Positions 57,612 through 58,535 of a stretch of DNA of 64,000 nt are shown in pieces. Origin of the DNA: Nocardioides marmorisolisilvae (GTDB lineage: Bacteria > Actinomycetota > Actinomycetes > Propionibacteriales > Nocardioidaceae); the NCBI RefSeq assembly GCF_031656915.1, contig NZ_CP134227.1, positions 3,224,001 through 3,288,000 of the forward strand. Direction: 5' to 3'. Every line of letters begins with the position of its first letter. Position 1 is the first letter of the stretch. The position numbers and the translations under genes were made by a program. The notes under the pieces were generated by a model. The model did not search any database, was not told the origin of the DNA, and saw nothing but the letters and a program-made list of their open reading frames with translations.

Positions 57612-58535
57612 ATGACCACCACCATCAACCCCGACAAACTCGCAGCCCTCGACGACATCCAACTCCACGAAGGCTCACACGGGTCCTTCGAGTCCGGCCA
57701 TTGCGCAATGGAGGTCGTGTCCTGGCTCGCCGACGAAGGATTCACCGACGCACCCTCCTGCGCATCCCCCGTCCTCGCCCGATACGTGATCCGCCTCAAT
57801 GACAGGTGGGACGACGCGAAGCGCCAGACCCTCAAGCCCTACCTCGTCCGCATGATCGGCACCGGCGACGACGGCAAGGACACCATCCGCGAGCAGATCG
57901 CCACCCGCTACCTGACCGAACGACTGCTGCGCCCGTGGCTCGACCTGGCCGGAATGAGCGAACAGGCCGCGCAGCTCGACGCCCTCGCAGCCGACTCCCC
58001 GCAGGAGCGTCGGCGGGTCCTGTATGCGATCCGTGACGCCGCATGGACGCTGCGCCAATCGCGCTGGGCCACGCTGCGTAAGGAGGTCGAGGTCAAGGTG
58101 CGCGAGCAGCTGGCAGACCGCCCCGTTGCCGATGCCGTTGCCGTTGCCGTTGCCGTTGCCGTTGCCGTTGCCGTTGCCGATGCCGATGCCGATGCCGATG
58201 CCGCTGCCGCTGCCGCTGCCGATGCCGTTGCCGATGCCGCTGCCGCTGCCGATGCCGATGCCGCTGCCGTTGCCGTTGCCGTTGCCGTTGCCGTTGCCGT
58301 TGCCGTTGCCGTTGCCGATGCCGTTGCCGCTGCCGATGCCGTTGCCGTTGCCGTTGCCGACCTAACCCCGTACTCGGACGGTTGGTACAAGGTTCGCTCT
58401 GCCGCCTACGCAGCCGCTCGGAAGTACTACGACGAGCACCCCCTGCCCGTCGTCCAGGAGATCGCCGACCTCGCCGCCAGTCAGGAGCCGATCGCGCTCG
58501 AACTGCTCGACCTGATGATCGAGGCACGCGCGTGA
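57612..58535 (+). CDS. Prophage protein with 78-residue (V/D/A)-Ala repeat tract
   Basis: A 307-residue protein in three parts. Residues 1-171 are globular and helical (HEGSHGSFESGHCAMEVVSW, PVLARYVIRLNDRWDDAKRQ). Residues 172-249 are 39 dipeptides X-Ala where X is only Val, Asp or Ala. Residues 250-307 are globular again (DLTPYSDGWYKVRSAAYAAA...IALELLDLMIEARA). The tract is encoded by 39 uninterrupted GCCGNT hexamers. The globular part resembles hypothetical proteins of Gordonia and Mycobacterium phages; the tract probably acts as a spacer. GGAGACC precedes the ATG. Confidence 0.75.
   Translation: MTTTINPDKLAALDDIQLHEGSHGSFESGHCAMEVVSWLADEGFTDAPSCASPVLARYVIRLNDRWDDAKRQTLKPYLVRMIGTGDDGKDTIREQIATRYLTERLLRPWLDLAGMSEQAAQLDALAADSPQERRRVLYAIRDAAWTLRQSRWATLRKEVEVKVREQLADRPVADAVAVAVAVAVAVAVADADADADAAAAAAADAVADAAAAADADAAAVAVAVAVAVAVAVAVADAVAAADAVAVAVADLTPYSDGWYKVRSAAYAAARKYYDEHPLPVVQEIADLAASQEPIALELLDLMIEARA
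58125..58358 (+). repeat. 39-copy in-frame GNTGCC hexanucleotide array
   Basis: 234 bp of uninterrupted hexamers in which five of six positions are invariant and only the middle base of every second codon varies: T (Val) 21 times, A (Asp) 11, C (Ala) 7, G never. Like units cluster in runs (six, four, three, eight), as expected from slippage or unequal exchange. Confidence 0.95.

Follow-up and report, generated by a model that had tools for sequence, protein, structure and literature searches.

A hexamer array in a Nocardioides prophage gene and the variable alanine-rich tracts of its phage protein family

The window analysed here is a stretch of 64,000 nucleotides from the genome of Nocardioides marmorisolisilvae, which is assembled as one contig of 4.23 Mb. 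An integrase gene (48937-50136) adjoins a tRNA-Glu (48764-48837), and a 20-bp repeat of the tRNA-Glu end, found 40.85 kb downstream at genome position 3313666 (L261:2666), is placed as an attachment-site repeat would be. The tRNA and this repeat are likely to be the ends of a prophage, in which case about 25.7 kb of it lies outside the window. Within it, genes for an exonuclease (DUF3799, PDDEXK-like; 54883..55848, forward strand) and a RecT single-strand annealing protein (55838..56683, forward strand) lie no more than 2.8 kb upstream of the gene described here, and a C5 DNA methyltransferase gene (60222-61865) lies 1.7 kb downstream. Terminase, portal and tape-measure genes follow beyond the window end. 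A preliminary description of this DNA had called the gene a prophage gene, and these surroundings confirm that it is one.

The gene is an open reading frame of 307 codons (57612..58535, forward strand), with a sequence resembling a ribosome-binding site, AAGGAG (57596..57601, forward strand), 10 nt before its ATG at 57612. Three parts follow one another on this strand: a conserved N-terminal helical domain (N-domain; residues 1-170, 57612..58121), defined by alignment and a structure model; the repeat array; and a C-terminal helical part (58359..58532), delimited by the structure model and sequence comparison. Direct counting in the sequence gives 39 GNTGCC units in frame at 58125-58358, 234 nt in all, comprising 21 GTTGCC (Val), 11 GATGCC (Asp) and 7 GCTGCC (Ala) units and thus a (Val/Asp/Ala)-Ala tract. 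The recount agrees exactly with the earlier one, including the statement that the middle base of alternate codons alone varies: 18 of the 39 middle bases differ from the commonest, as against none of the 78 third positions. TRF independently reports a repeat at 58123-58359 (period 6, score 348). As a chance check, a 27-base pattern of four H-units was run against the 4.23-Mb genome and matched 37 times, 35 of them within the array and two in a short array at 3326147; the same pattern run backward as a control gave nine matches at unlisted positions, and the array's own Val runs would match it. The short array, of GATGCC type (L002:1500-1551; G000:C1:3326147), lies outside the window gene. Elsewhere in its own genome the DNA of the gene matches four further places, each over at most 53 bases at 82-92% identity; the short array at 3326147 is among these four.

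The N-domain is modelled as seven helices with a mean pLDDT of 95.6. Block means are 83-96 for C-terminal residues 271-307 and 75 for residues 261-270, and the claim of an intact frame between globular flanks therefore stands. Structure prediction of the tract itself, which had been proposed as a check, does return a helix, but at a pLDDT of 36-65, so that a rod is a tentative reading. The charge-tunable linker suggested earlier is a conjecture. Counterparts of the C-terminal part (YW..R.AAY..., ...LL..MI) stand behind the tract in many relatives. Comparison of the N-domain with solved structures gave no convincing relative, nor did Pfam give a convincing match for the whole protein; NCBIfam and PADLOC returned zero matches for the three family members tried (PADLOC with no family at E 0.1). 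The window protein weakly matches two PHROGs of unassigned function, and among 89 aligned family N-domains 52 match phrog_13065 and 44 match phrog_3416 at E ≤0.001.

Searched against viral contigs, the whole protein found 19 relatives and the N-domain alignment alone found 345. What looked like one odd repeat is thus a family-level phenomenon, with a relative encoded on 345 viral contigs. Among the best 80 of these, which we used for tract counts and which include two genes present on two contigs each (L294/L295 and L328/L329), an Ala-rich tract of at least 30 residues stands behind the N-domain in 75; of the other five, two are cut by the contig end at or before the tract and three have 17-25 such residues. 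The array therefore belongs to an unnamed family of phage proteins that usually have such a tract. The preliminary description had placed it in 'one phage protein', and while the array is there as described, its uniqueness is not. Contigs end within the tract in 18 of the best 80, as assemblies do at repeats, which serves as a warning that phage assemblies often break in this gene. One 54.6-kb contig (IMGVR_UViG_3300048589_001642) holds two copies of the gene (L307 and L309), about 90% identical before the tract and with related yet different tracts.

Residues H23, E34, N63, D64, R71, R93 and A119 are invariant in the 89-sequence N-domain alignment, and C31 and C50 are conserved in at least 90% of it; a metal-binding or active site may be built from the conserved His, Cys, Glu, Asp and Arg. 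The window protein shows the family pattern, with the N-domain motifs G.H, C.ME, D.P.C, ND and R.. and an Ala-rich tract directly behind them. Of 24 family open reading frames from cellular genomes, the window gene and L008 have the tract and L007 starts one before running off its contig; no tract was seen in the remaining 21, among them L009, which ends too early to tell. A tract-free homologue of the N-domain occurs elsewhere in the window's own genome (L029, G000:C1:425541-425747), and others occur in further bacterial genomes of the same phylum. A literature search, with most subscription journals outside its scope, yielded no paper recognized as treating the family of the window protein; one article on hypervariable loci in the skin virome (PMC5299996) does not contain the term 'tandem repeat'.

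The family also reaches cultured phages. A relaxed search with the N-domain of a relative returned 127 records at E up to 0.5, of which 124 were Mycobacterium phages. The likeness of single mycobacteriophage proteins to the family query is weak (tblastn E 0.04), and the family profile matches all 16 mycobacteriophage genes that we fetched, at 32.6-36.9 bits. Members include Courthouse gp101, LittleE gp110 and JuicyJay gp107 of Omegavirus, as well as Shauna1 gp53, Bobi gp57, Batiatus gp52, Avani gp62 and Michley gp72, all annotated as hypothetical proteins. Like the window protein, they consist of the N-domain, an Ala-rich repeat tract and a C-terminal part, but their units are Asn/Tyr/Asp-Ala-Ala or Ser-Ala-Ala-(Trp/Arg/Glu/Gly), where those of the window are (Val/Asp/Ala)-Ala. 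Five relatives fetched from Cheoctovirus, Avanivirus and Fromanvirus match Courthouse at 79-83% identity in their first 266-285 bases and have a unit class other than that of Courthouse. Because cultured laboratory phages have the tract, its rate of change, its mechanism and the need for it can be measured directly.

Units across the family fall into several classes: X-Ala (6 nt, as in the window), (W/R/G)-(D/A)-Ala-Ala (12 nt), Ser-Ala-Ala-(E/R/W), and Tyr/Asn/Ser types. A four-codon period was found in 37 of the 62 tracts in the set collected with the N-domain only. One tract (L037/L263) has a nine-base form, GCT-GNC-GNC, with one fixed codon and two variable ones. In another (L045), 115 perfect GCT-GNC units share the middle base almost evenly between A (39), C (39) and T (37). 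Within any one tract each residue mostly has a single codon, and departures from the repeating wobble pattern are few; GCC accounts for 377 of 377 Ala codons in the Omegavirus tracts and for 125 of 230 outside them. Among genes with at least eight perfect units, the skeletons are GCT-GNC (19), GCC-GNT (11), GCG-GNT (2), GCA-GNC (1) and GCC-GNA (1). The same residue sets recur on 13 wobble skeletons of 12 nt and five of 6 nt, at least 18 in total, which points to the protein rather than the DNA being what is kept.

To put the contrast in numbers, we started from 141 distinct family genes, including tract-free chromosomal ones. A readable tract of at least 40 codons was present in 100 of them, and 99 were left once L103 had been dropped as a second copy of the contig of L049. 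Each tract was assigned a period of 1-7 codons, and non-modal residues and silently non-modal codons were counted in each phase. Perfect runs have zero silent variation by construction, so silent variation was measured on whole tracts instead. Over 8,611 codons we counted 2,484 non-modal residues and 126 non-modal synonymous codons; silent differences are absent from 58 of the 99 tracts and present in 41, the highest numbers being 16 (L314), 12 (L326) and 9 (L040). Tracts with a two-codon period (n = 44; 3,723 codons) have 1,129 non-modal residues and 35 silent differences, and 31 of the 44 are free of silent change. Some loci had been found partly through their tract, by patterns that do not allow G, so the subset found with the N-domain alone was counted separately: its 62 tracts (5,210 codons) have 1,464 non-modal residues and 96 silent differences, with 31 of 62 silent-free.

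Two regularities of the window array turned out to be local. Its lack of Gly, read earlier as 'never Gly', is not a family rule: among family genes we counted 29 hexamer arrays that reach 20 units or more, and their 1,231 middle bases comprise 456 T, 413 C, 341 A and 21 G, the last number being lowered by the search patterns through which many of these arrays were found and which exclude G in five consecutive units. The 21 Gly units are confined to three of the 29 arrays, and hexamer arrays outside a recognized family open reading frame have more G (49 of 801 middle bases). Gly is thus disfavoured but allowed in family units. Nor does the 'exclusive GNT' choice hold beyond this array, as the other skeletons listed above show. 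In five pieces of prophage open reading frames outside the array, GAT makes up 8 of 117 Asp, GTT 3 of 90 Val and GCT 5 of 164 Ala codons. Codons ending in T are scarce in the prophage genes around the array, which makes a founder skeleton that spread through it a better explanation of GNT than codon preference.

The tract had also been described as length-variable, and comparison of homologues found length polymorphism in the Omegavirus relatives. The gene is covered to at least 80% by 26 records, exact and near copies among them, and from these we chose 11 genes for their unlike match scores, all from finished genomes of cultured M. smegmatis phages. These 11 genes have 11 distinct tracts of 49-77 codons, with a mean of 2.98 differences in 534 nt of flank. 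In 15 of the 55 pairs the flanks differ at no more than one position, and the tracts are 3-39 codons apart in edit distance; between JuicyJay and Ejimix 0 of 534 flank positions differ, and the tracts are 60 and 49 codons long, respectively. At least three phages, Ariel, Squint and Superphikiman, share the entire gene with Courthouse without a single difference, which shows that the tract does not change at every step. Two uncultured viral contigs from one sample (L288 and L297) differ at 15 of 396 flank positions, and their unit orders are unlike as far as both can be read, both being cut by contig ends. A further pair (L305 and L319) has flanks 85% identical and tracts of 142 versus 78 residues. 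Both the length and the composition of the family tract can therefore evolve far more quickly than the remainder of the gene, even where two phages are almost identical around it. Copy-number change on constant flanks, the mark of an in-frame variable-number repeat, was shown for Omegavirus members rather than for the window's own array. The nearest readable relative of the latter (L250), in a genome of the same genus (G400) that holds two relatives of the gene, has 49 GCG-GNT units, and the part before its tract is 56% identical at the protein level. In the second G400 relative (L258:5358-6236, minus strand) the tract is a run of N, which agrees with a repeat left unresolved by short reads, or with a masked stretch.

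The arrays that we simulated underwent unequal crossover, short conversions from unit to unit and rare mutation, equally frequent at every site, with an optional rule keeping the mixture high; the models are simple, in that the mixture is enforced by the rule and not by population selection. Without the rule, the residue mixture was lost (H 0.02, 28 of 30 runs monomorphic). Recombination with enforced mixture gave H 0.94, silent variation of 0.006 per site, LZ z -1.19 and longest-repeat z +2.30, while the 29 observed hexamer arrays have a mean H of 0.94, LZ z -0.89 and longest-repeat z +1.52. Unequal crossover alone with selection was rejected, its arrays being too block-like (LZ z -2.39), and short conversions were added to the model for this reason. 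Of 45 settings tried, the only ones to approach the data combined an enforced mixture with infrequent mutation. Models in which the variable base changes in a directed way and selection is absent gave, at two rates, H 0.92 and 0.76, LZ z -1.11 and -0.83, and longest-repeat z +2.69 and +1.42. The two kinds of model fit about equally; the statistics of the arrays thus set the variable sites apart from the rest, but do not reveal the cause. In an earlier simulation that treated change as mutation, the variable-site excess over silent-site change was roughly 30- to 300-fold and unit turnover was at least 100 times the silent rate.

Genes that recur near the family gene encode exonucleases (DUF3799, YqaJ), RecT, ERF, VRR-NUC, ParB-like, DnaB, methyltransferase and integrase proteins, each at 4-13 of 93 loci; in Michley, a Cas4-type exonuclease and DnaB lie near it. 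On the basis of these recurring neighbours we tentatively assign the protein to early DNA metabolism or to host takeover. Recombination genes lie near the family gene at 25 of 77 loci versus 8 of 102 comparison loci (Fisher p 3e-5), in a search whose query proteins had been taken from the window and from loci of the family itself. Counted per record, RecT or ERF is present in 11 of 25 family versus 5 of 25 comparison records (p = 0.13), where three RecT matches are under the curated cut-off, both sets were picked by hand from longer contigs, and the comparison set was not checked whole for the family. We infer that the protein is non-structural and acts early, with a variable rod or spacer behind its helical N-domain.

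The explanation that we favour, and hold to be probable though well short of secure, is that the array is a fast-evolving repeat tract of such a protein, in which exchange reshuffles the units and selection on the protein keeps the mixture. The folded helical N-domain and the short helical C-terminal part would be joined by the Ala-rich tract, probably a helical rod or spacer. Unequal exchange, slippage and short conversions from one unit to another may duplicate, delete and shuffle the units, and phage single-strand annealing proteins may assist in this. Exchange between units would homogenize silent sites, and selection at the protein level would maintain a mixture of allowed residues (Val, Asp and Ala in the window) and reject most others. 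As a first guess, the tract may set the reach or the binding surface of a protein with a part in the early DNA metabolism of the phage or in countering a host factor. The preliminary description had spoken of point change restricted to one position. The pattern is as it said, but a mutational restriction is not needed, because exchange shuffles only sites that already differ, and exchange with selection for a mixture fits.

Another possibility, which we consider unlikely but deserving of attention, is that the variation is itself adaptive, the tract being a recognition or escape surface on which new orders are favoured in an arms race with hosts or rival phages. The excess of residue-changing over silent differences, the unlike tracts on near-identical flanks, and the aromatic and charged residues (W/R/G, D/A) of the commonest unit class all agree with this idea. 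A need for mixed composition together with neutral reshuffling fits them too, no partner is known, and PADLOC, as noted for three members, has nothing to offer. Still bolder, and in our judgement improbable, is the proposal of a continually rewritten array of minimal units (2-4 residues on a frozen codon skeleton), phage-wide and free of reverse transcriptase, in which the order of variable residues is a heritable recognition or escape code.

Site-targeted mutation, in which a dedicated mechanism of retroelement or other type alters the variable base while the skeleton is copied faithfully, seems to us slightly less probable again. It would account for silent sites that are almost frozen beside variable sites near maximum entropy, and its simulation fits without selection. 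Against it, a match to reverse transcriptase (PF00078) was found in only one (the L281 record; G431:C1:596-1231) of 50 records of relatives, which may be fragments, and nowhere in the complete genome of the window. The contexts of the variable base differ (GNT after GCC, GNC after GCT, the first base of NGG), so that a common target is not seen. Repeated blocks exceed those in shuffled arrays, as copying makes them, although targeted change with copying produces such an excess as well. A retroelement mutator is thus unlikely to be behind the variation. The scarcity of reverse transcriptases, the differing contexts of the variable base and the recurrence of residue sets on at least 18 skeletons lead us to favour selection on the protein.

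It is very improbable that the array acts as DNA, as origin iterons or a recombination or packaging site with the peptide as a by-product: the perfect repeats do lie inside a gene near an exonuclease and RecT, and the phage lambda origin sits inside gene O, but the unit differs across relatives (6, 9 or 12 nt, on the many wobble skeletons described) while place, frame and Ala-richness are constant. Neutral microsatellite-like drift or an assembly artefact is disfavoured to a similar degree, for although repeats expand readily, contigs break in the tract and the second copy in the genus is a run of N, neutral turnover loses the mixture in simulation, the window genome is one contig, and finished cultured phages have such tracts.

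Among known systems, a lambda O-type origin within a gene would show a conserved DNA unit, whereas here unit length and wobble skeleton vary among relatives. Diversity-generating retroelements share with the family the confinement of amino-acid changes to defined sites of one gene. They need a reverse transcriptase and a template repeat, and the complete window genome has neither a PF00078 match nor, with gene-DNA matches no longer than 53 bases, a template repeat. TAL effector repeats likewise keep a constant frame and vary one or two residues per unit, but their units are about 34 residues long and follow a known DNA code, while those of the family have 2-4 residues and no known fold or ligand. 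Variable-number tandem repeat proteins, such as staphylococcal protein A with its region X, have in common with the family the gain and loss of units in frame, variation of typing grade and constant flanks. Staphylococcal protein A repeats have many silent changes, whereas the family's units are only 2-4 residues long and their silent sites hardly vary. In kind, then, the tract is a variable-number repeat, and what sets it apart is the contrast between protein-changing and silent differences, the tiny units and the breadth of the family.
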